DNA of 45,943 nt from Planctomycetes bacterium GWF2_41_51 (GCA_001825665.1 MHXZ01000048.1:1-45943), one strand, 5' to 3'; numbered from the stretch's first letter, positions 1 through 12,077 are shown. The notes: generated by a model from the letters alone, not told the origin. Made by a program: numbers and translations.

Positions 1-465
1 GGAATGGCTGCCGCATTTGTGCAGAATCATTTCTGGCCGAACCTCGCAGAATGGTTCCAGTTTACGTATGTTCTTGGTACCGGGCTTGCCGGTTCGCTAT
101 TAGGAACTTATTTTACCAAACCAACCGATCAAAAAACCCTTGAGAATTTCTATAAAAAAACTCGGCCTTTCGGTTTTTGGGGGCCTCTGAAAAACGTTTT
201 TGGGCCGGAATTCAGGAAATCCACTAAACGCGAACATTTTTATGATATTATTTCAATACCGTTTGCTTTGGGATGGTTTATAAGTATCCTGTTTATGCCT
301 ATGCAGGCGATGTTGAGGCAATGGAGTGCGGTAGGCTATACGAGCATTTTGTTCGTAATTTCAATAATTGGCCTTTACTTCTTCTGGTATCGTCAGCTTC
401 CGCCGGCAACTAAGAAAGAAAAAATAACAACATCGGAAAAAAATTTAAAGGAAGTCCAGGTATGA
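1..465 (+). CDS. C-terminal end of a solute:sodium symporter (SSS family), partial
   Basis: Only the last ~154 codons are inside the window; the reading frame is open to base 1, so the ATG at base 4 is probably internal. What is visible is a membrane protein tail: a hydrophobic stretch near the start, a loop with the pattern TKPTDQKTLENFYKKTRPFG, two further hydrophobic segments (IPFALGWFISILFMP and YTSILFVISIIGLYFFW), and a charged cytoplasmic end rich in Lys. The loop (T-x-P-T-D, then F-Y-x-x-x-R-P-F/G) is what I associate with the C-terminal part of Na+/sugar symporters common in planctomycetes. It overlaps the following glycosidase gene by four bases (ATGA), which argues for one operon for uptake and breakdown of a sugar. 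A different class of transporter cannot be excluded because the sodium-site helices lie outside the window. Confidence 0.65.
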   Translation, partial: GMAAAFVQNHFWPNLAEWFQFTYVLGTGLAGSLLGTYFTKPTDQKTLENFYKKTRPFGFWGPLKNVFGPEFRKSTKREHFYDIISIPFALGWFISILFMPMQAMLRQWSAVGYTSILFVISIIGLYFFWYRQLPPATKKEKITTSEKNLKEVQV

Positions 466-1805
466 AACTAAATTTCATTGCATTTTCGGCGATTATGATA
501 ATGAACTTTATCAATACAATAGCATACAGTGATGATGTTGCAAGTCACGAGCCTTTTAATATGAATCGGCAGCAGGTGATTGACGCAACCCTGAAACCTT
601 ATGACGGCACAAGCGTTAAAGGTGTTGATACTTCCACAATGACCGGCAAAGTCCTTTGCGGCTATCAGGGCTGGTTTACCTGCCCCGGTGATGGTTCTGC
701 AAGAGGCTGGTTCCATTGGGGCAAAGGCGTTTTCGAGCCGGGCAATTGCAAAATAGATATGTGGCCCGATATGTCAGAATATGAGAATGATGAACGATTC
801 CCAACTCCTTTCAAACATGCCGATGGCAGCCCTGCTTTTGTTTTTAGCTCAATGAATCCGAAAACCGTAAATCGCCATTTCAAATGGATGGCTGATTATG
901 GAATCGATGGCGCTTTCATCCAGAGATTTGGTTCTGAAATCCGCAGCGAAAGAGCACTTAATCATACCAATACTGTTCTTGGAAATTGCCGAAAGGCAGC
1001 AAACCAGAACGGAAGAGTTTATGCAGTGATGTATGATATCTCTGGTATGGAAAAAGGAGAGATTGAACGGATTATCGAAGATTGGAAAACGCTTGTTGAT
1101 AAAATGCGTTTAACAAAAGACCCCAATGACAAAGCATATATGCACCATAATGGCAAGCCGGTGGTATCCGTTTGGGGAATCGGTTTTGATGGACGCGAAT
1201 ATACGCTTCAGGAATGCGCAAAACTCGTCGATTTTTTGAAAAATGACAAAACTTACGGCGGCTGCACTGTAATGCTCGGCGTGCCGACATATTGGCGAAC
1301 ACTGCGTAACGATTCAGTAAAAGATCCATTCCTGCACGAAATCGTCCTTAAGGCTGATATTGTAAGCCCTTGGATGGTTGGCAGAATCAGAAATATGAGC
1401 GATATAAAGGAATTTGTTTATAATCGCATCTGGGTTCCGGATTTAAAATGGTGCAAAGAAAATAATAAAGAATATTTGCCTGTAGTTTTTCCGGGTTTTA
1501 GCTGGACAAATCTGACTAAAAACCCTAAAGATTTCAACAGAATACCGCGCCGTGACGGCAAATTCCTGTGGCAGCAATACCTCGAAGCCAAAAACGTTGG
1601 TGCAACGATGGTTTATCAGGCAATGTTCGACGAGGTTGACGAAGGCACCGCAATTTTCAAATGTACAAATTATCCGCCCGTAGGAGCATCAAAATTCCTC
1701 ACGTATGGAGACGATAAAGCGAGCGATTATTATCTTTGGCTGGTAGGTCAGGGCGGCAAAATGTTCCGCGGTGAAATACCAAAAGATTTCCCAAAGAGAA
1801 AATAG
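462..1805 (+). CDS. Secreted glycoside hydrolase, GH71/GH99-like
   Basis: A 447-aa protein with an N-terminal hydrophobic signal segment (FIAFSAIMIMNFINTIAYS), so it probably acts in the periplasm or outside. The early motif GKVLCGYQGWFTCPGDGS followed by WFHWG, and later acidic/aromatic segments such as GIDGAFIQRFG, VVFPGFSWTNL and MVYQAMFDEVDEGTAIF, match the proteins usually labelled glycoside hydrolase family 71/99-like (sometimes xylosidase/arabinosidase). These are TIM-barrel enzymes. The FDEVDEGT segment is a good candidate for part of the acidic active site, but I have not proved which Glu/Asp are catalytic. The start ATG overlaps the stop of the upstream symporter gene, implying translational coupling. 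The substrate cannot be told from sequence alone; an alpha-mannan or other plant/algal glycan would fit the family. Confidence 0.8.
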   Translation: MKLNFIAFSAIMIMNFINTIAYSDDVASHEPFNMNRQQVIDATLKPYDGTSVKGVDTSTMTGKVLCGYQGWFTCPGDGSARGWFHWGKGVFEPGNCKIDMWPDMSEYENDERFPTPFKHADGSPAFVFSSMNPKTVNRHFKWMADYGIDGAFIQRFGSEIRSERALNHTNTVLGNCRKAANQNGRVYAVMYDISGMEKGEIERIIEDWKTLVDKMRLTKDPNDKAYMHHNGKPVVSVWGIGFDGREYTLQECAKLVDFLKNDKTYGGCTVMLGVPTYWRTLRNDSVKDPFLHEIVLKADIVSPWMVGRIRNMSDIKEFVYNRIWVPDLKWCKENNKEYLPVVFPGFSWTNLTKNPKDFNRIPRRDGKFLWQQYLEAKNVGATMVYQAMFDEVDEGTAIFKCTNYPPVGASKFLTYGDDKASDYYLWLVGQGGKMFRGEIPKDFPKRK

Positions 1806-1873: not shown

Positions 1874-3013
1874 ATGCCTATGCGAAATTTAGGGATGATT
1901 GTCTTAATACTTGTCTTTGCCTGTACCGCTTTTGGTGCAGAGCAGCCGCTTTTAAAGCAAAAACGTACCTGTCAGGAATGTCGCCGGCTTGCGGATAAAG
2001 GTGCTTATGAAGAAAGCATCAAAGCATATCAGGAATTTATAGACACCAATAAGGGTAGTTTCCAAATCGACGACGCTTATTTTGCGATAGCTGATATTTA
2101 CGATACAAAGCTTTTCGATTTTCAAAATGCACTCCCATGGTATGGCCAATTAATAAAGAATTATTCAGATAGTACACTCGCAGCTTTAGCCTATCAGCGA
2201 ATTAACTACATCGCGGCCTATGCGGATTATGGTTTTAAGCCGCTGGCACTCTTTGAACGCGTAAGGTCCGTCGAATATGCTCAAAAAAAAGAAATCCCGA
2301 CAGAACGCGATAAAATTCTTAATCAGGTCAGCTCACTGATAAACGAATACCCCAAAAGTAATCTGGCCCCTGTTATGCAGCATTGGCTTGCTAATCAATA
2401 CCGCCTGTTTGCACCAGACAAGGCCGTCGAAGCCTATATTATGCTTAGAAATAATTATATCGGCCATAGCGAAGCAAAGGAAACGATGCTCGAGATAGGC
2501 GAAACATATTATAATGCGGCAAGATACAAAGAATCCGTAACAGCCTTTGAGCAGGCATTAAAAGAAACACCTGAACTCACGAAAACAATTAATTCCCAAA
2601 TCAGACGTGCCCATCGAAACATTCGCAGAGATAACATCGCAAATTTAAGTATCATAATTTGCGGTATTTTATTCGCAGGCTCCCTTTTGATAAAACCCCG
2701 CTGCATCTCATTAAAGAATATCGTTCGCAGCGTTATAATCTTTGCTTTATCCGGAGTGTTGCTGTTCGCAGGCGCATGGCTCATTCGCAGCCAGTTTGAT
2801 ACATTAAATCATTTAATTTTGATTGCAACTTTATTTGCCGCATCCATCGGACTTGGCTCGTTCGTTTCAATACAAGTCGCACGAAAAATGAAAAATAGTC
2901 ATATTGCAGCGGCACTTCTCGGCTCAATGACCGGTGTAATCTTCTTATTGGCGGGAATGTATTTAACGATTTATTATGTATATGTGCATTATTTGGTAAT
3001 TTTTAAACTATAA
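1874..3013 (+). CDS. Exported TPR protein with four C-terminal membrane helices (A)
   Basis: A 379-aa protein, first gene of a compact operon; a TGGAG ribosome site precedes the ATG. A signal peptide or first helix (residues ~5-20, MIVLILVFACTAFG) is followed by tetratricopeptide-like helical repeats (for example YEESIKAYQEFID, FQNALPWYGQLIK and YKESVTAFEQALKETPE), a Cys pair CQEC near residue 35, and then four hydrophobic segments from about residue 255 to the C-terminus. It has the same plan as the gene at 5484-6746 (signal, TPR, four helices) although the sequences differ. TPRs generally bind other proteins. With the small one-helix peptide gene directly downstream, a role as a periplasm-facing chaperone or scaffold for that peptide is a fair inference. 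I do not recognise a named family. Confidence 0.75.
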   Translation: MPMRNLGMIVLILVFACTAFGAEQPLLKQKRTCQECRRLADKGAYEESIKAYQEFIDTNKGSFQIDDAYFAIADIYDTKLFDFQNALPWYGQLIKNYSDSTLAALAYQRINYIAAYADYGFKPLALFERVRSVEYAQKKEIPTERDKILNQVSSLINEYPKSNLAPVMQHWLANQYRLFAPDKAVEAYIMLRNNYIGHSEAKETMLEIGETYYNAARYKESVTAFEQALKETPELTKTINSQIRRAHRNIRRDNIANLSIIICGILFAGSLLIKPRCISLKNIVRSVIIFALSGVLLFAGAWLIRSQFDTLNHLILIATLFAASIGLGSFVSIQVARKMKNSHIAAALLGSMTGVIFLLAGMYLTIYYVYVHYLVIFKL

Positions 3014-3028
3014 ATAGAAGGCAGCCAA

Positions 3029-3229
3029 ATGAATCAGAGAGGTAAAATCTTACGCGTAAAAACTGGATATAATCCTAATTCAAGTTCCATTGGAACTCAC
3101 ATCCCCGCTTTTATCTTCTCTGCGATAGCATCAGGTGTTTTCGCTGTCATTGCCATGCAGACTCTCAATACGATTGAAACCGTTATAAGGAAAAGAAAAG
3201 ATTCTTTGACGTCAGACAAAAAAGAATGA
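3029..3229 (+). CDS. Small membrane peptide 1 with GKILRVKxGYNPNSSSxG motif (candidate modified peptide)
   Basis: A 66-aa protein, preceded by a good ribosome site (GAAGG, 7-base spacing). Residues 5-22 carry GKILRVKTGYNPNSSSIG, shared almost letter for letter with the second small protein at 5278-5487. A hydrophobic segment of ~20-25 residues follows (IPAFIFSAIASGVFAVIAM), then a short basic/acidic tail. There is no cysteine, so thioether (sactipeptide-type) crosslinks within the peptide are excluded. Two copies of a short conserved motif in one operon with a radical SAM/SPASM gene (6755-7942) suggest that the motif is either the recognition leader or the modified core of a ribosomally made, post-translationally altered peptide. 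This is inference; the other reading is a small accessory subunit of a membrane complex. The last four bases overlap the start of the next gene. Confidence 0.75.
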   Translation: MNQRGKILRVKTGYNPNSSSIGTHIPAFIFSAIASGVFAVIAMQTLNTIETVIRKRKDSLTSDKKE

Positions 3230-3741
3230 ACGTAAAAAAATGCACAGTCATAATTTTAATTTTTTCGGCTTTGTTTTTGGGCGGATGCAGAAATAAGCCT
3301 GCCATTGAGAATAATGAACCTATAGATTTCAGGCTCGATACTCTCGGCCGCGACCGCTTTTACCTTAATCAACACAGGGGAAAAAACGTTTTGCTTGTTT
3401 TCTGGTCAACATGGTGCATCCCCTGCAAATCGCAGCTTGTGGCACTGAAATCGCTCGCTTCATCGCCTGAATTTAAAGATGTTGTGTTCGCCGCCGTTTG
3501 CAATGACCCCGAAAATCTCGATGATGTGAAACGGATCGTTAAGACGCTCGATATAAATTACCTTGTTCTTCTTGACAATCAGGCACAGGTTGCCGAAAAA
3601 TTGGGAGTTAAAGCCGTACCAACTACATTTATTGTAAATGCCGATGGTAAAATTACCTTGAAAGAAGAAGGCTATGACGCCGAAACAATGAAATTGATAA
3701 CAAAACATATTTCAAACCTTGTGGTTTCAAATAAGAATTAA
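3226..3741 (+). CDS. TlpA/ResA-like thioredoxin-fold lipoprotein
   Basis: A 171-aa protein. The N-terminus is a lipoprotein signal with lipobox LGGC (Cys21), so the mature protein should be membrane-anchored on the outer face of the cytoplasmic membrane or in the outer membrane. The thioredoxin fold is shown by VLLVFWSTWCIPCK (redox pair Cys64/Cys67, CIPC), by VAEKLGVKAVPTTFIVNADGKI with the cis-proline Pro in VPTTF, and by the usual total length. Proteins of this class reduce or shuffle disulfides of exported proteins. It overlaps peptide gene 1 by four bases and is followed after one base by the phosphoesterase-thioredoxin fusion gene, so two thioredoxin modules are made from this operon. 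Because the small peptides have no Cys, its client is more likely one of the TPR proteins (which do have Cys) or the fusion protein. Confidence 0.88.
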   Translation: MNVKKCTVIILIFSALFLGGCRNKPAIENNEPIDFRLDTLGRDRFYLNQHRGKNVLLVFWSTWCIPCKSQLVALKSLASSPEFKDVVFAAVCNDPENLDDVKRIVKTLDINYLVLLDNQAQVAEKLGVKAVPTTFIVNADGKITLKEEGYDAETMKLITKHISNLVVSNKN

Positions 3742-3742
3742 T

Positions 3743-5275
3743 ATGAAGACAAAAACGCTTATAATTTTAATATCAGCAGGTTTCTGCTTTGCCGGAATAA
3801 ACGGTTTCACCGCGGGACCGTACCTTCTCGATGTAAAAACTGATTCTGTGATAGTCGCGTTTCATATAGATAAGCCTTTAAATGCAAAAGTTAAAATTTC
3901 TAATGGAAATGAATTTAAGGAATTTAGTTCCGAAACCAAAAGCAAATCGCATTTTATAAAAATTTCGAATCTCAAACCCGGCCTTTCTTATGATTATCAG
4001 GTCATTTGCGGCGATGGACAAATTCAGACCCCTGCCGATGATAAAAGTTTTCAGATTAAAACCGCTTGCAGACTTGGAGAATCTTTTTCATTCGTCGTAT
4101 ATGGCGACACTCGCCCCGGCGAAAATAAAACCAGCCGCTACCATAAGCAAATCATCGAACAGGTTATAAATCAGGAACCTTCGTTTGCACTTGTCCTTGG
4201 CGATATGGTTGATGACGGTTCAAATGAAAATTTGTGGAATGATTTCTTCGAGATTGAATCCGGTTTGCTGAGAAGAAGCGCGATTTATCCGATTCTCGGC
4301 GATAATGATTTCGCTAAAGGCAAAGGTCTATACCTTGATTATTTCCCTTCGCTTTCACCGGCTTATTACAAATTCGAATGGGGCGGAGTCCAATTCTTCG
4401 GTTTAAACGCATGGGGCACAGATGGGAACCAGAAATCCGAAGAATTCAAAGCAGACAGCCCGCAAATTAAATGGCTCGTATCCGAACTCGCAAAAAATGA
4501 AGTGCAGAGTTCACTTTTCAGAGTTGTTTTTCTGCACGACCCGATTTTTATTTCACGCGGAAGAGCTTCAGAGCTGCTCCGCAGAACGCTCGTACCGATA
4601 TTTAAAAAATATAATGTCGATGTCGTGTTCGCAAGCTGGCATTTATACGAACGCTCCATCAGCGACGAAATTAATTACATAATCACTGGCGGTGCAGGTG
4701 CGGAACTTATCTGGATGAGCAGGGACAAAAATTTCCAGTCGCTGGCCGAGGCAAGAGAATATCATTTCTGCAGAGTCGATATAAATTCCAATGCAATGAC
4801 AATAAGTGCCATTGCGGAGAACCGTACCATTCTCGACAGTATCACCCTTATCCCCCGTTCAGAGCAACTGCAAATGGCTCAAAGCATTGAAGAATCCGCA
4901 GTTCTGCTTGCAAAAGAAATACATATCTCATCAGACAACAATAATCCTTCTATCCCTTTGTATTTCTTTTCATCCGATTGCGATTTTTGTAAAGAGCTGC
5001 TTGATAATGAACTTCCGAAACTCGCCCGCGAACATAATGTTTCGCTTGAAGTTTCATATTATGAATTGGGAAATGAAGGAACTTATCAGCTATTGCAAAA
5101 TATTGAATCTAAATTCGGCAGACAGAACGTCGAAATACCTGCCATTTTCATTGGTAAATCTGTTTTAGGCGGCGAAACTGAAATTAAGAAAAACCTCCCT
5201 GCCGAGCTTATAAAATTCAGACAGGCCCCTCAAAAATATCTTGAAGAAATGATAACGCCTTTTAATGGTGAATAA
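3743..5275 (+). CDS. Purple-acid-phosphatase-like metallophosphoesterase fused to a thioredoxin/glutaredoxin domain, degenerate active site
   Basis: I place the start at the ATG at 3743 (510 aa) because it opens directly into a signal peptide (residues 1-22) and clears the upstream stop. Domains: a fibronectin-III-like N-terminal module (~25-105); a calcineurin-like phosphoesterase (~115-370) with GDTRPG at 121, GDMVDDG at 153 and His265 in LHDP; and a C-terminal thioredoxin-like module (~400-495) with CDFC (Cys413/Cys416) and a probable cis-Pro in EIPAIF. Two usual metal or catalytic motifs are altered. Where GNH[DE] is expected there is GDND (186-189), and where GHxHxYER is expected there is ASWHLYER (297-304), losing the first His. 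Activity may therefore be changed or lost. The fold call is secure; the enzyme reaction is not. It lies mid-operon between peptide genes 1 and 2. Confidence 0.82.
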   Translation: MKTKTLIILISAGFCFAGINGFTAGPYLLDVKTDSVIVAFHIDKPLNAKVKISNGNEFKEFSSETKSKSHFIKISNLKPGLSYDYQVICGDGQIQTPADDKSFQIKTACRLGESFSFVVYGDTRPGENKTSRYHKQIIEQVINQEPSFALVLGDMVDDGSNENLWNDFFEIESGLLRRSAIYPILGDNDFAKGKGLYLDYFPSLSPAYYKFEWGGVQFFGLNAWGTDGNQKSEEFKADSPQIKWLVSELAKNEVQSSLFRVVFLHDPIFISRGRASELLRRTLVPIFKKYNVDVVFASWHLYERSISDEINYIITGGAGAELIWMSRDKNFQSLAEAREYHFCRVDINSNAMTISAIAENRTILDSITLIPRSEQLQMAQSIEESAVLLAKEIHISSDNNNPSIPLYFFSSDCDFCKELLDNELPKLAREHNVSLEVSYYELGNEGTYQLLQNIESKFGRQNVEIPAIFIGKSVLGGETEIKKNLPAELIKFRQAPQKYLEEMITPFNGE

Positions 5276-5277
5276 TT

Positions 5278-5487
5278 ATGAAACAGAAAATTGAAATAAA
5301 GAAAGGCAAAATCCTGCGTGTTAAGCAGGGTTATAACCCAAATTCAAGTTCTATGGGTTCGATTGTATATATTCTGCCTGCCGCCCTGCTCGGTATAACA
5401 ACAGGATTCGGCGTAATTTCAGGCATTATACTCGCTGCCTTTATGACCGACAAAAATAAAAATGTTGAAGACAAGGAACAAAAATGA
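5278..5487 (+). CDS. Small membrane peptide 2 with GKILRVKxGYNPNSSSxG motif (candidate modified peptide)
   Basis: A 69-aa paralogue of the 66-aa peptide at 3029-3229. Residues 10-27 read GKILRVKQGYNPNSSSMG, differing from peptide 1 at only two positions, while the rest has diverged. The N-terminus is four residues longer and Lys-rich, the hydrophobic helix (IVYILPAALLGITTG and on) is followed by a charged tail (DKNKNVEDKEQK), and again there is no Cys. The strong conservation of one 18-residue block against drift elsewhere points to selection on that block, as expected for an enzyme recognition site or a modified core. The gene starts two bases after the phosphoesterase stop and overlaps the next TPR gene by four bases (ATGA), so its expression is tied to both neighbours. 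Confidence 0.75.
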   Translation: MKQKIEIKKGKILRVKQGYNPNSSSMGSIVYILPAALLGITTGFGVISGIILAAFMTDKNKNVEDKEQK

Positions 5488-6746
5488 AAAAATTGTTAAT
5501 CATTTTTGTTATATCCTTTGCTGTTACTTCGTTTGTTTACGCTGATGCCGCCAGCGACGCGAATGCATTATTTGAAAAAGGCGATTATCTTGGCGGGATG
5601 AGTATCCTGACTAAAGCCATAAATAATACTGACCCTAACCAAAGAGCCGCCGCACTTAGCACCTATGCGAAGTTTTATGAAAATCTCGTCGGAAATCACA
5701 GTTACGCATTAATGCTTTATAATGATATTTTAAAAACGAAACTTCCAGCCGACAATCCGCTGAAATTATCTGCTCAAAAGGAAATCGGCAAATTCAGAGC
5801 ATTGAAAACTCTTTACGGTTCACAGGATTTATTGCTGAAAAGACTGCGCCCTGTTGAAACAATGAAACCTGATGATATTCAGCACCAGATTGCTCAATTA
5901 CAGTCAATCATCGACAATAAACCTGACTATTATAGACTTGCGGAAGTATATTATTATCTCGGCCGTTGTTTGGTATCCAATGAAAATTATAAGCAGGCAT
6001 ATATTGCATTAAAAAAATCAATGGAATTAAAGCCCGCAATAAATTTTTATTTGCCTGTCAATGTCTTTAAAGACCAGGCTTATGCGAACTGGATTCGCGC
6101 AACAGCTAAAACAATTTCCAGATACTCCGCAGGTTTGCTTTTAGTTATCACCATAGTTGCTTTTTACTCTTCGCGCCCATGGAGATGGCTCACATTCCGC
6201 CATTTAAAAATAGGGTTTGCTCTGATTTTATCATGGCTGATAGTATTCACAGCCTTCTATATTTTATTCGGCCGCACCTGCAAAATATCTGACAAAGTAA
6301 TGGTCGATATCAGCGCACCGGTCCCCTTCTTTACAAACATCGAACCCGGTAATCCTCATTGGCAAATTGCTCAAAACCTGCTTATGTATGGTTTAACAGC
6401 AGTTATAGCCCTGTTTGTATTTTCTATCGGTACAAGCAGGTTCAAGTTCCGGTTCACGTCTATTATTTTAAATTCCGCTTACGCGTTAATCTTATTTACA
6501 ACTTTGATGGCAATCTTTTACTTGCAGCACTGCGACCAGAAAAGTATTTTTAATGCTGAAAATCCGCAGGACAAATTAACTTATGCGCAAGGCGGTAATT
6601 ACTTTGTAACTGTCGCAATGGAGCCTTATATTTTGACAAACCCGAAAGCATATCCGAACCTTGCCATTGAGAATGTCGCCGATGTCCATTTGAAAGAATG
6701 GATGAAAAAATATTGTCCATTTACAACCCAATCGGCGGCACATTAA
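5484..6746 (+). CDS. Exported TPR protein with C-terminal membrane helices (B)
   Basis: A 420-aa protein with a clear signal peptide (KKLLIIFVISFAVTSFVYA), TPR-like helical pairs (DANALFEKGDYLGGMSIL, YYRLAEVYYYLGRCLVS, YKQAYIALKKSMELKP) up to residue ~200, then four hydrophobic helices between ~210 and ~350, and a 70-residue polar C-terminus. Cys residues lie in GRTCKIS and LQHCDQK near the membrane, possible clients for the thioredoxin proteins of the operon. The plan mirrors the gene at 1874-3013, giving the operon two TPR/membrane proteins and two small peptides, as if a pair had been duplicated and diverged. It is translationally coupled to peptide gene 2 by ATGA overlap, and its stop overlaps the ribosome site of the radical SAM gene. 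Function not recognised. Confidence 0.72.
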   Translation: MKKLLIIFVISFAVTSFVYADAASDANALFEKGDYLGGMSILTKAINNTDPNQRAAALSTYAKFYENLVGNHSYALMLYNDILKTKLPADNPLKLSAQKEIGKFRALKTLYGSQDLLLKRLRPVETMKPDDIQHQIAQLQSIIDNKPDYYRLAEVYYYLGRCLVSNENYKQAYIALKKSMELKPAINFYLPVNVFKDQAYANWIRATAKTISRYSAGLLLVITIVAFYSSRPWRWLTFRHLKIGFALILSWLIVFTAFYILFGRTCKISDKVMVDISAPVPFFTNIEPGNPHWQIAQNLLMYGLTAVIALFVFSIGTSRFKFRFTSIILNSAYALILFTTLMAIFYLQHCDQKSIFNAENPQDKLTYAQGGNYFVTVAMEPYILTNPKAYPNLAIENVADVHLKEWMKKYCPFTTQSAAH

Positions 6747-6754
6747 GGAAATTA

Positions 6755-7942
6755 ATGAAAACTATAAATAATACAGAAAAAATTAATTACCGTTATGAAA
6801 ATTTTGGAGGAATCATCTCCAGCCAGAATCCGCCGTTCCTCGCGTTTGTAGATAGAAATTACATGCGTGAACTTGGATTGGACGAATCAGAAATATGGAA
6901 AACCAAAGACCAGTCCATCGGCAGATTGTCCGCACCTACCGAAGTGCATTTCGCCATAACTAATAAATGCTCTGTAGGATGTCAGCATTGCTATATGAAC
7001 GCAGGCGATGAAGACGATGGCGAACTGGACACCGAATCATTCAAGCGTGCACTGGATGTTTTGGCGGAAATGAAGGTCTTTCATATCGCTCTTGGCGGTG
7101 GAGAGGCTCTTGAACGTGATGATTTATTCGAAGTCGCTCTGTATGCAAGAACCAAAAATCTCGTACCAAATCTCACTACTTCGGGCGCAAAAATTACTCC
7201 CGAATTAGCTGAAAAAATGAAAATTTTTGGTCAGGTAAATATTTCTCTCGATGGCATCGGCCAAAACTATAGCGTTTTCAGAGGCAAAGATATGTTTTCT
7301 ATCGCTGACAATGCGATAACCTGCCTTATCAAGGCCGGCGTGCCGACTGGAATAAATTGCGTTGTAGGCCAAACCAATTTTGAAGGTATCGCAGAGCTTT
7401 TTGAATATGCCTCCAAAAAGGGAATCAATGAAATAGAATTTCTAAGATTGAAACCATCCGGCCGCGGAATGGAAAATTATCTCCATCAGCGTACAACATA
7501 TCAGCAGAACATATCATTAGCGCCCACGTTAGCCGAACTTTCGGCCAAATTTAATATAACGGCTAAAATCGATTGCTCGTTTGTTCCCATGTTCTGCTAT
7601 CACAATCCTCCTATGGAAATGCTCGAATCGATTGCGACTTACGGCTGCGAAGCGGGTAATGTACTGCTGGGAATCAGAAGCAACGGCCTTGTCAGCGGCT
7701 GTTCGTTCCTGAAAAGTCCAGGAATGTCCGTCTTCGAGCTTGCGTCGGATTTAAAGCATGAAGGCTCTTTCGATAAAATATCAAATTGGCTCAAAAACGC
7801 ACCGGAACCCTGCAATTCATGCCAATATCTGAATCTTTGCAAAGGTGGCTGCCACGCGGTTTCTCAGCATCTTACAGAAAATTTCAGTAGTCCGGACCCT
7901 GACTGCCCCAAAGTTGTGGAATATAACAAAAAGAAAGAATAA
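6755..7942 (+). CDS. Radical SAM/SPASM protein, candidate peptide-modifying enzyme
   Basis: I choose the ATG at 6755 (395 aa) because an AAGGA ribosome site sits just upstream, overlapping the stop of the TPR gene; an in-frame ATG at 6698 would lie inside that gene. The radical SAM cluster motif is C72-x3-C76-x2-C79 in NKCSVGCQHCYMNAG, followed by the GGGEAL motif at ~114. The C-terminus is a SPASM domain: GCEAGN, GCSFL, then C353-x2-C356-x5-C362-x3-C366 and a final Cys384, enough for auxiliary iron-sulfur clusters. Residues ~10-45 (YRYENFGGI, then FLAFVDRNY) resemble the short N-terminal segment many peptide maturases carry, but I cannot claim a recognition domain. SPASM enzymes typically modify peptides or proteins (thioethers, C-C links, epimers, formylglycine). 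The twin Cys-free peptides in the same operon are the obvious candidate substrates. Confidence 0.9.
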   Translation: MKTINNTEKINYRYENFGGIISSQNPPFLAFVDRNYMRELGLDESEIWKTKDQSIGRLSAPTEVHFAITNKCSVGCQHCYMNAGDEDDGELDTESFKRALDVLAEMKVFHIALGGGEALERDDLFEVALYARTKNLVPNLTTSGAKITPELAEKMKIFGQVNISLDGIGQNYSVFRGKDMFSIADNAITCLIKAGVPTGINCVVGQTNFEGIAELFEYASKKGINEIEFLRLKPSGRGMENYLHQRTTYQQNISLAPTLAELSAKFNITAKIDCSFVPMFCYHNPPMEMLESIATYGCEAGNVLLGIRSNGLVSGCSFLKSPGMSVFELASDLKHEGSFDKISNWLKNAPEPCNSCQYLNLCKGGCHAVSQHLTENFSSPDPDCPKVVEYNKKKE

Positions 7943-8569
7943 ATGAATAAGTCCGCTAAAAAATTTAATAAACTCGGAGTTTTTTTTACACTTATTGTAA
8001 CAATCGGCTTTCTCTTTTGCGCATTAGCATGGAATAATCTTTGGAAACCGCCTGACACTGCTTCCGCCAAAGACATCCGGAAAAATATTCAGAATACATT
8101 TTTAAATTTACAGACCATTTCCCTCGCTCAAACTGAATATAAAAAAACTGATTGGGACAACGATGGCAAAAATTTATATGCAAAATATTATATTCATCTT
8201 TGGACTTCTGTTAGCACAACAAGCGAACCGATAAAGGTCAAACTTATCCCTAAAAAGCTCGCCTTTGCCATTGAAGCTGCAAGAGCGATTGACGGTTATT
8301 ATTTTATTGATTTACATGATACGCGACTTGCCGACAATCAATTGCAGCCGCTTGATTATGAAAAGCAGTGGGCAATTCTCGCAATGCCGCCAAATGAAAG
8401 CCAAAATCAAGTTTTATATTTTCTTGCTGACAATTCCGGAAACATTTTCGTTCAGCTTTCTAAATACATTTCACCTGAATATATTGAAAGTCCCATCGCT
8501 AATGGCTGGACCAAAATCGAAACGATTCAGCAATTAAATGATTTTCTAAATAGTTCACTCCAAAAATAA
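7943..8569 (+). CDS. Membrane-anchored unknown protein, DUF2950-like in pattern
   Basis: A 208-aa protein whose ATG directly follows the stop of the radical SAM gene, so it is the last gene of the operon. One N-terminal hydrophobic helix (VFFTLIVTIGFLFCALAW) anchors a soluble domain that should face the periplasm. The order of short motifs, TEYKKTDWDNDGKNLYA, later AIEAARAIDGYYFIDL, then WAILAMPP and YFLADNSGNIFVQL, resembles the family often called DUF2950 or pilin-like proteins of planctomycetes. In those, a DxDxDG-like segment is followed by GYYF and an A-x-P...F-x-x-x-x-x-G-x-I-x end. The match is by eye and weak. No catalytic residues are evident. Its role in the operon is unknown; by position it may belong to the complex that holds or displays the small peptides. 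Confidence 0.7.
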   Translation: MNKSAKKFNKLGVFFTLIVTIGFLFCALAWNNLWKPPDTASAKDIRKNIQNTFLNLQTISLAQTEYKKTDWDNDGKNLYAKYYIHLWTSVSTTSEPIKVKLIPKKLAFAIEAARAIDGYYFIDLHDTRLADNQLQPLDYEKQWAILAMPPNESQNQVLYFLADNSGNIFVQLSKYISPEYIESPIANGWTKIETIQQLNDFLNSSLQK

Positions 8570-9913: not shown

Positions 9914-11206
9914 TTATTTCGTGATTCGTTTTGTCAACTCAACAAGCTGTGCCTGAATTTTATTGTCGGATTGTTCCAGTTCCGCAATTTTCCCGCAGGC
10001 GTGCATTACTGTTGTGTGATCGCGCCCGCCGAGATGTCCCCCGATTTCCTCGAGACTGTGGCTTGTTAAACTCCTCGCAAGATACATGCAAACCTGCCGC
10101 GGCATCGTAATGCTCTGGCTGCGCTTTTTGCTCTGTAAATCTGCCGGCCGAACATCATAATAAGCTGTTACTGCTTTGATGATGTCTGTAATTGTGATGT
10201 TTCTGTCGTTTGTTTCTTTATCGCCAAGCGCAATTCGCGCAAATTCTTTTGTGATTTCCTGTTCGCCGCCGCCGACAAGAGCGTACAGCGTTGTCAAAGC
10301 GCCCTCAATTTCACGGATATTCGCTTTTACCTTCGATGCGATATATTCCGCTGCATCATCGGTAATTTTCATTCCGCGCAGTTTCGCTTTTTTCTGTACT
10401 ATCGCGATTCTCGTTTCGTGAGTCGGCGGGTCAATTCTTGCTACAAGGCCGCATTTGAATCTGCTTGTCAGTCTTTCCGGAAGTGTCGGTATCTCACCAG
10501 GCGGAGCATCGGCGCTTAATACGATTTGACTGCGGTTTCCGTAGAGAGCATTGAACGTATGAAAAAATTCTTCCTGGCTTTGGTCGCGCTCGCGCAGAAA
10601 CTGAACATCGTCTATCACAAGCAAATCAACCGTCCTGAATTGATTCTTAAATTGCGGCAGCGTTCCCGCTTCGATTGCGTTGATGAACCGATTGACGAAC
10701 TCATCACAGCTTATGAATTGAATCTTCGCGTTTGGTTTGCTCAATTGCGTCTCTCGGCATATCGCGTGCAGCAGGTGTGTCTTGCCAAGCCCGACCGTGC
10801 CGTAAATGAAAAGCGGATTATATGTTTTGCCCGGCGAATTGCTCACCGCAACGCAGCTTGCGTGCGCCAGACGATTGCAAGGACCCACAACAAAATTATC
10901 GAACGTATAATCCGGATGAAGTTTCAGCGGAATTGCAGAACGGCCTGTCTGTTCGTTTTTATTTTCGCTCTCAAACTTTATCGATACAAGATGACCCGTG
11001 ATTTGCTGCGCTGCCAGCGTAAAACTGCTGACACAGACATCCTGCAGAAAGCTTGCGCTTTGATTATCAGGACAGGCTATTTCGAGCTGTCCGCCGTTGA
11101 AGTTTTTATATTTTAATGTATTAAACCAGCTTCTGCTGTTCACTGGGTCGAGTACCTTGACCCGTTCAATTATCGCTTCAAATATTTCACTTGAGTTTTT
11201 CGCCAA
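9914..11206 (-). CDS. dnaA: Chromosomal replication initiator protein DnaA
   Basis: A 430-aa DnaA. Domain I is at ~1-85, there is a very short linker, and the AAA+ domain starts near residue 95 with Walker A GTVGLGKT (136-143; Thr where many have Gly), Walker B LLVIDDVQFL and sensor segments. The C-terminal DNA-binding domain carries the signature RDHTTVMHACGKI. It binds DnaA boxes and melts the origin as an ATP complex. The start is TTG at 11206: a GAGGAAG ribosome site lies 4-7 bases upstream on the minus strand and no ATG fits the domain I start. There is no dnaN or other origin cluster beside it, and no row of DnaA boxes. One box with a single mismatch (TTAACCACA, 11247-11255) lies just upstream and might serve autoregulation. 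It is convergent with the LacI-family gene. Confidence 0.96.
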   Translation of the reverse strand: MAKNSSEIFEAIIERVKVLDPVNSRSWFNTLKYKNFNGGQLEIACPDNQSASFLQDVCVSSFTLAAQQITGHLVSIKFESENKNEQTGRSAIPLKLHPDYTFDNFVVGPCNRLAHASCVAVSNSPGKTYNPLFIYGTVGLGKTHLLHAICRETQLSKPNAKIQFISCDEFVNRFINAIEAGTLPQFKNQFRTVDLLVIDDVQFLRERDQSQEEFFHTFNALYGNRSQIVLSADAPPGEIPTLPERLTSRFKCGLVARIDPPTHETRIAIVQKKAKLRGMKITDDAAEYIASKVKANIREIEGALTTLYALVGGGEQEITKEFARIALGDKETNDRNITITDIIKAVTAYYDVRPADLQSKKRSQSITMPRQVCMYLARSLTSHSLEEIGGHLGGRDHTTVMHACGKIAELEQSDNKIQAQLVELTKRITK

Positions 11207-11391: not shown

Positions 11392-11718
11392 TTATATCGG
11401 GCTTATTGTTTGTCCTTCTGTCCTTGCAGTTTCAATTATGGCACTCGATGTATCGTTTTGCCATTGTTGTCTGCCGCAGGCGATAGGTTCAATTCTGCTG
11501 TCAACTCTTGCTGCTATCTGCCAAAGTTTTTTCACCTGCGCTCTGGTAACGCCGATATCAAAATCGGTTGATACCACAATTAAGTCTATATCGCTCAACT
11601 CGTTAGCACAACCTGTTGCGTATGATCCGAAGACCACGCCGAAGTTTATGTTCAGCCCGGATTCTGAAAGTTTGGCCAAATATTTTTTTACACCATTTAT
11701 AATTGCCGGCTGTACCAT
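11392..11718 (-). CDS. MNT-type nucleotidyltransferase (partner of HEPN protein)
   Basis: A 108-aa minimal nucleotidyltransferase of the DNA polymerase beta fold. The diagnostic motif is GSYATGCANELSDIDLIVV (G-S-x10-D-x-D), with metal ligands in DID. Small proteins of this kind act as antitoxins to HEPN-domain toxins, in the best-studied cases by adding AMP groups to a Tyr of the toxin. The gene overlaps the end of the upstream HEPN gene by 22 bases, on the same strand, which is the standard order for a HEPN-MNT pair. Product lengths fit the family. It ends 186 bases upstream of the dnaA start, with which it is co-oriented. Confidence 0.87.
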   Translation of the reverse strand: MVQPAIINGVKKYLAKLSESGLNINFGVVFGSYATGCANELSDIDLIVVSTDFDIGVTRAQVKKLWQIAARVDSRIEPIACGRQQWQNDTSSAIIETARTEGQTISPI

Positions 11719-12077
11719 TCCAAAACCTCTTTAGTATTTTTTAAATATTCCTTTGCTTCCTGATTCGAAATTTCAGGCAAGCTGGGAACCGGATATCTGC
11801 CTTCAAGGTTGAACTGATTCATTTCCGCAAGAAAATCAATATTCTCTTCTGAAAGCTCCAAACCAGCTATTTCTGACAATCTAACAAGATTGTGCAATTT
11901 AGGTGCAATTTTCCCTGTGTTTTTGCATACGTGAGCTTTTAGGATTTTTTCAAGAGACAAATGTGCGAAAAAAAGCCCGTGACGAACTTTATTACCGGTT
12001 ACTAATTGTTCGGCTGCCTGCCAGTCTTCCGCTGCGCCGCTTTTCCAGTATTTAATTTGTTCAAGAATATCAACCAT
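11697..12077 (-). CDS. HEPN-domain protein (partner of nucleotidyltransferase)
   Basis: A 126-aa all-helical protein of the PF05168-type HEPN family, shown by EDWQAAEQLV, GLFFAHLSLEKILKAHV (the helix with the Lys of EKxLKA), LHNLVRL and the late EGRYPVP. HEPN proteins are often RNases. I do not see a convincing R-x4-6-H catalytic motif in the expected late position, so this one may be inactive as an RNase or act through another residue. It is first in the pair and reads into the nucleotidyltransferase gene with overlap, supporting a toxin-antitoxin or nucleotide-transfer role. The AAGG-containing ribosome site before its ATG is good. Confidence 0.85.
   Translation of the reverse strand: MVDILEQIKYWKSGAAEDWQAAEQLVTGNKVRHGLFFAHLSLEKILKAHVCKNTGKIAPKLHNLVRLSEIAGLELSEENIDFLAEMNQFNLEGRYPVPSLPEISNQEAKEYLKNTKEVLEWYSRQL

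Follow-up and report, generated by a model that had tools for sequence, protein, structure and literature searches.

A radical SAM/SPASM enzyme linked to paired membrane peptides: an uncatalogued and probably undescribed gene system

A 45,943-nucleotide stretch of DNA from Planctomycetes bacterium GWF2_41_51 (GCA_001825665.1, MHXZ01000048.1:1-45943), hereafter called the window, carries at positions 1874-8569 eight tandem genes on the same strand, which encode two small membrane peptides (pepA and pepB), one radical SAM/SPASM enzyme and a set of envelope proteins. The gene set is a real, uncatalogued system, and probably an undescribed one. As the preliminary description of this locus had proposed, the combination does not correspond to a named system, with the enzyme meeting no NCBIfam cut-off and the peptides belonging to no Pfam or NCBIfam family. 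With a slightly better than even chance, the enzyme modifies the N-terminal tail of both membrane peptides, which are kept as subunits of an envelope module. The near-constant company of such an enzyme and such peptides in several distant phyla suggests a new mode of chemically modifying small membrane proteins.

The peptide family and its linkage to the enzyme

Both peptides are free of Cys and have in common the block GKILRVKxGYNPNSSSxG, with 16 of its 18 residues identical, after which they diverge into different hydrophobic helices. The same two paralogue types recur among the related loci, type A (..VGSxIPAFL) and type B (..MGSIVFALPAAL), whereby the block is common to both and the helix is conserved within each type and differs between them. 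The C-terminal tails vary freely in length and charge; the block is almost invariant across phyla. It recurs in 45 peptides, whose contigs belong to several phyla, so that the sharing is not due to chance. The consensus of these 45 peptides is G-x-x-[P/A]-N-[S/C]-S-[S/A]-x-G, and the Asn, the second Ser and both Gly are invariant in all of them, in a count whose search pattern itself fixed several motif positions; all loci from the profile searches contained the motif anyway. Since both Ser codon boxes occur at one invariant Ser, selection acts on the protein.

The first Ser of the motif (in NSSS) is Ser in 35 peptides and Cys in 10, the latter all from Myxococcota, where the motif is looser (G-x-x-[P/A]-N-[S/C]-S) and its Tyr is not conserved. 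Overall, the Tyr is present in 30 of the 45 peptides, and the Pro is not invariant either. The earlier statement that absence of Cys rules out thioethers therefore fails for the family as a whole. From the list of targets given at that time (Tyr, Asn, Ser, Pro, Arg or Lys), the Tyr-type options lose weight because Tyr and Pro are not invariant. No peptide scored above any cut-off in Pfam and NCBIfam, where a credible family came up neither for 21 peptides nor for four from Myxococcota, and neither GYNPNSSS nor NPNSSS occurs in any paper of the literature collection searched.

Peptide and enzyme occur together across genomes. Among 397 genomes of the class, a two-row profile detected the peptide in six, and the enzyme profile at E ≤ 1e-60 marked exactly the same six. 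Scanning 84,980 species genomes with the peptide profile gave 13 loci, from Planctomycetota, Delongbacteria, 'Deltaproteobacteria', Desulfobacteraceae, Aminicenantes, Myxococcota and one record labelled Proteobacteria. The total of peptide-bearing genomes is 33 (Planctomycetota, Delongbacteria, Desulfobacterota-type, Aminicenantes and Myxococcota), and 30 of them, counted as independent units though they are not independent, carry the enzyme clade, usually adjoining the peptide. In the remaining three the enzyme has not been demonstrated: the contig of G405 stops at pepB and the enzyme was not searched for in that genome, and G998 and G949 have none on the contig sequence read. The two Myxococcota peptides with no recognisable enzyme on the contig sequence read are at L134:8517-8636 and L149:9418-9561. 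The proposal that peptide and radical SAM gene belong together was thus supported, and the pattern that had been named as speaking against it, peptides widespread without a radical SAM gene nearby, was not encountered.

Sampling showed the peptide to be rare in the phyla to which G401, G403 and G409 belong, in draws (three) with common genomes, and in that of G402, in which the centre genome alone matched. The phylum that contains the Myxococcota locus, however, gave matches in 19 of 209 genomes. In Myxococcota, the enzyme profile match begins in most loci no more than about 160 bp from the peptide match, often without thioredoxin genes, so that peptide and enzyme make up the minimal unit. Scans of viral contigs with the enzyme and peptide alignments yielded no relatives.

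The radical SAM/SPASM enzyme

The enzyme joins a radical SAM CX3CX2C motif (C72, C76 and C79; Pfam Radical_SAM, 57.6 bits) to a SPASM set of seven Cys, C298-X12-G311-X4-C316, CX2CX5CX3C (C353, C356, C362 and C366) and C384, which agrees with the SPASM pattern CX9-15GX4C...CX2CX5CX3C...C. This Cys set is invariant in 27 or 28 of 28 aligned enzymes (one row is incomplete). Twelve aligned orthologues, that of the window included, have 56-70% identity to the window enzyme; the Myxococcota relatives, at 33-44% identity, keep the radical SAM and the seven SPASM Cys. Asp273-Cys274 (invariant) and Arg13-x-Glu15-x-x-Gly18 (nearly invariant) are also conserved across the relatives. The start was placed at the ATG at 6755, because the orthologues begin MKYRYENFGG; a second possible ATG lies further upstream, at 6698, and within an overlap with the gene before it. 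A signal peptide is not evident.

In the phylogenetic tree these enzymes form a clade of their own (support 100/100), the heme enzymes AhbC, AhbD and NirJ lie together on a 99/98 branch without it, and MftC and PqqE each make up a separate 100/100 clade. The references included distant SPASM enzymes, the only matches of a plasmid tblastn search, with up to about 30% identity; the tree has long branches and gives no deep order among the clades. Clustering with a known non-peptide enzyme, the other result that had been said to speak against a peptide-modifying role, was accordingly not observed. Moreover, the enzymes that go with Cys-type peptides, of which nine are known, fall into a single clade (Shimodaira-Hasegawa-like approximate likelihood-ratio test, 93) nested among the Ser-type enzymes, so that a single Ser-to-Cys change suffices.

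Against NCBIfam, the window enzyme stayed below every curated cut-off (best mycofact_rSAM, 149.8 versus 265 bits; next NirJ1, 121.5 bits), as did four relatives for every equivalog cut-off shown. The closest solved sequences are PqqE, SkfB and SuiB, and the closest solved folds SkfB, SuiB, PqqE and the anaerobic sulfatase-maturating enzyme (anSME), all of which modify peptides or proteins; the structure model is of moderate quality, with a mean predicted local distance difference test score of 72.7 and values below 50 at residues 1-61. Over 25 columns, the N-terminus is similar to MftB, the mycofactocin peptide chaperone (24.9% probability, P 8e-4), which is a hint of peptide recognition in the sequence and not a domain. 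PADLOC gave the enzyme generic viperin similarity only (50.7 bits), and a role in defence was set aside.

The cassette, its relatives and its neighbours

The genes in the window are tightly packed, with successive gaps or overlaps of +15, -4, +1, +2, -4, +8 and 0 bases (Table 1). The arrangement reported earlier, eight such genes with two Cys-free peptides sharing one block and a SPASM enzyme with a full Cys set, was confirmed, and so was the assignment of the other members to the envelope: two TPR membrane proteins (the second by a weak match), a TlpA lipoprotein, a phosphoesterase with a weak glutaredoxin-like end and a one-helix protein.

Table 1. Genes of the cassette and its neighbours in the window, and a second small membrane protein of Myxococcota loci
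Feature	Position	Strand	Description
TPR1	1874..3013	+	signal peptide, conserved CxxC (RTCQECRRLAD), TPR repeats, C-terminal membrane helices
pepA	3029..3229	+	type-A membrane peptide, 66 aa: GKILRVKTGYNPNSSSIG, then one hydrophobic helix, basic tail
TlpA/ResA-type thioredoxin lipoprotein	3226..3741	+	named from Pfam/NCBIfam
MPtrx	3743..5275	+	calcineurin-like phosphoesterase (Metallophos), C-terminal weak glutaredoxin-like region (SDCDFC)
pepB	5278..5487	+	type-B membrane peptide, 69 aa: GKILRVKQGYNPNSSSMG, then hydrophobic helix with PAALLG..FG pattern
TPR2	5484..6746	+	TPR-like region (weak match), membrane helices after it
Radical SAM/SPASM enzyme	6755..7942	+	separate clade, seven-Cys SPASM, N-terminal RxExFGG motif
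oneTM	7943..8569	+	one membrane helix plus DUF2950-like (possibly pilin-like) domain
GH99-like glycoside hydrolase gene	462..1805		Pfam, 36.4 bits
DnaA-like open reading frame	9914..11206	-	TTG start; judged by eye
Two adjoining small genes	11392..12077	-	nucleotidyltransferase-like (GSYATGCANELSDIDL) and HEPN-type protein
Second small membrane protein	L144:7019-7789, L146:10814-11584, L151:1580-2341, L136:6455-7213, L147:1502-2584, L141:10191-11429, L143:8630-9091, L149:9311-10081		

Most core loci comprise nine genes in the order TPR1, LipoX, pepA, TlpA, MPtrx, pepB, TPR2, enzyme, oneTM; exceptions and truncated contigs occur. The window cassette is a reduced form of this arrangement, because it has neither LipoX, nor the extra purple-acid-phosphatase-N-like domain found at the N-terminus of TPR1 orthologues, nor the CcdA/DsbD-like membrane domain into which MPtrx orthologues extend C-terminally (a CcdA reading drawn from sequence and a weak ArsG-transporter match). 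LipoX was not found in the window genome by a search in which two relatives from the same order matched. The CcdA-like domain was not found there either, in a search without a positive control; the contiguous gene order also supports its absence. The oneTM proteins fall into the DUF2950 group (Pfam PF11453), which seven of ten orthologues match at E ≤ 1; the best value is 4.8e-15, and one of the matches shown exceeds the gathering score. The window oneTM itself has no match to DUF2950 or to anything else in NCBIfam or Pfam. Pilins came top in its fold search, which was not significant (best E 0.07), so that 'pilin-like' stays a suggestion.

In Myxococcota, one locus (L135) contains TPR1, TlpA, MPtrx, peptide and enzyme, and the others are mostly peptide and enzyme alone, some with a TPR or phosphoesterase gene close by. 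A second small membrane protein (about 140 aa, no Pfam match) with conserved HGH, HP and KEH histidines accompanies most Cys-type loci and one Ser-type locus of this phylum; the arrangement of these His residues might hint at a site for a metal or heme. A third copy in a deltaproteobacterium (L054:4544-11670), consisting of a peptide/TlpA/MPtrx fragment between inverted SynChlorMet radical SAM genes (ScmE and ScmF), was set aside as a probable mis-assembly, because ScmF is fused to a LipoX tail and N-runs lie close by.

The GH99-like gene lies directly upstream of the cassette in the window, with no match recorded at related loci. The DnaA-like open reading frame follows about 1.3 kb downstream, and the two adjoining small genes beyond it were judged by eye to be a possible MNT/HEPN toxin-antitoxin pair.

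Proposed modification and comparison with known systems

In the mechanism that we favour, the enzyme would modify, post-translationally, the presumably cytosolic N-terminal tail of pepA and pepB. It would probably grip the strand h-L-x-h-[K/R] (GKILRVK) and act within G-x-x-[P/A]-N-[S/C]-S-[S/A]-x-G, most likely at the alternating Ser/Cys, which the alignment makes the best candidate, or at the neighbouring Asn and Ser. The exchange of Ser for Cys at this residue suggests involvement of its side-chain oxygen or sulfur, and the chemistry may be a (thio)ether-type crosslink or an oxidation. Precedents are anSME, which oxidises Ser or Cys to formylglycine (PMC5682303), and other radical SAM enzymes, which make ether or thioether links (PMC9062424, PMC9055067). 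A cytosolic position of the block is expected because radical SAM clusters depend on a reducing environment and a signal peptide is not evident in the enzyme. The modified peptides would stay in the membrane as subunits, together with the TPR proteins, the TlpA lipoprotein, the phosphoesterase/glutaredoxin(/CcdA) protein and the DUF2950 protein, in an envelope module that might also move thiol electrons (through its TlpA, glutaredoxin-like and CcdA-like members). In a narrower version, which we put forward only tentatively, the enzyme would build a cofactor or crosslink into N-[S/C]-S of both short peptides, and these would be membrane-anchored structural subunits of a multi-phylum envelope redox/phosphoesterase complex rather than secreted products.

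Several points weigh against this mechanism. Besides the three of 33 peptide-bearing genomes with no demonstrated enzyme and the motif positions preset in the 45-peptide count, the conserved block could be a leader rather than the target. Moreover, a full recognition domain of the kind known from ribosomally synthesized and post-translationally modified peptides (RiPPs) was not found in the enzyme, whose N-terminus is conserved but unreliably modelled at residues 1-61. Finally, SPASM enzymes also act on hemes (AhbD, NirJ), so that a peptide substrate does not follow from the fold by itself.

With the block as leader and the hydrophobic C-terminal part as core, the system would be a conventional RiPP whose product is cut, then released or inserted into the membrane; we regard this as unlikely. 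The usual RiPP layout, recognised from the start, is present insofar as small paralogous peptides stand beside a SPASM enzyme, and a genetically linked precursor, as expected of a RiPP, is seen in the shared six class genomes and in the 30 of 33. The conserved N-terminus and variable C-terminus likewise follow a leader/core pattern, and the h-L-x-h-[K/R] stretch resembles a recognition strand. However, the core loci contain no recognisable protease or exporter, and no genes for leader removal or export were found among the cassette proteins scanned, although they could lie elsewhere. The block is nearly invariant across phyla as against C-terminal tails free in length and charge, and conservation of the helices by paralogue type is what would be expected of subunits. 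Because the invariant block precedes a membrane helix and the cassette has neither protease nor exporter, a secreted leader/core product is not favoured; the type-wise conservation of the helices, together with that lack, favours modified subunits that remain anchored in the membrane.

Less probable still is that the enzyme acts on a small molecule, a heme-like cofactor or another cassette protein, and that the peptides are unmodified subunits of the same complex. Such a role would agree with the existence of heme-synthesis SPASM enzymes, which come next in NCBIfam score (NirJ1), and with the envelope proteins encoded by the co-conserved genes. In contrast, the enzyme clade stands apart from the AhbC/AhbD/NirJ branch, the minimal Myxococcota loci contain little beyond peptide and enzyme, and the enzyme subclades track the Ser/Cys type of the peptide, though common descent could give the same pattern. 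The lowest probability is given to a variant of the favoured mechanism, anSME-like conversion of the Ser/Cys in N-[S/C]-S to formylglycine, a reactive aldehyde on a membrane peptide: the anSME reaction tolerates this swap (PMC5682303) and anSME is among the nearest folds, but its eighth SPASM Cys (Cys261) is Leu304 in the present seven-Cys enzyme, a mild argument against, and the sulfatase maturase model reached 46.7 bits in one relative versus a cut-off of 349.

If modification of the membrane peptides is true, the loci would hold an uncatalogued peptide family, a new SPASM clade and a likely target motif that switches naturally from Ser to Cys, and a comparison of oxygen with sulfur chemistry at one and the same position would be possible within one enzyme family. 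Radical SAM chemistry would then maintain membrane subunits of a widely scattered but rare envelope module.

Among known systems, anSME shares with the enzyme the alternation of Ser and Cys at one motif position and an identical spacing (+3, +6, +4, +18) of C353/356/362/366/384 and anSME C317/320/326/330/348 (PMC5682303); here, the target is no sulfatase and the family cut-off is not reached. The eighth Cys of anSME is absent from characterised peptide cross-linking SPASM enzymes (PMC5491770), and the enzyme is placed with the seven-Cys peptide modifiers because its spacing equals that of anSME but the Cys261 position is not Cys. MftC (TIGR03962), which acts with MftA and MftB, gave the best NCBIfam score and likewise has a seven-Cys SPASM and a short adjoining precursor, and the start of MftB resembles the N-terminal RxExFG motif of the enzyme. 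Nevertheless, that score is under the 265-bit cut-off, MftC falls in a separate clade, the cassette is without mycofactocin genes, and the peptide, unlike MftA, is of a membrane type without the conserved C-terminal Val-Tyr. PqqE of the pyrroloquinoline quinone pathway is also a seven-Cys SPASM enzyme acting on a short peptide, but it belongs to a separate clade, its model gave 78 bits versus a cut-off of 381, and no PqqA- or PqqD-like protein was found in the cassette. The sactipeptide and streptide maturases SkfB and SuiB have the nearest solved folds, and the Cys-type peptides could in principle form thioethers; in contrast, there is no sequence-family membership, and the peptides are mostly Cys-free, membrane-anchored and without an evident released core. 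GeoRSP (TIGR04303), a peptide-linked SPASM family, is fourth in score for the window enzyme (115 bits versus a 400-bit cut-off) and differs by its peptide and by a second, SPASM-only protein absent here. QhpD, the maturase of quinohemoprotein amine dehydrogenase (TIGR03906), is a SPASM enzyme that modifies a small protein subunit, with no free peptide made. It has another substrate and other partners, and scores weakly and only in divergent relatives (about 30-42 bits versus 453), but SPASM modification of a small protein subunit is the feature that it would have in common with the system proposed here.

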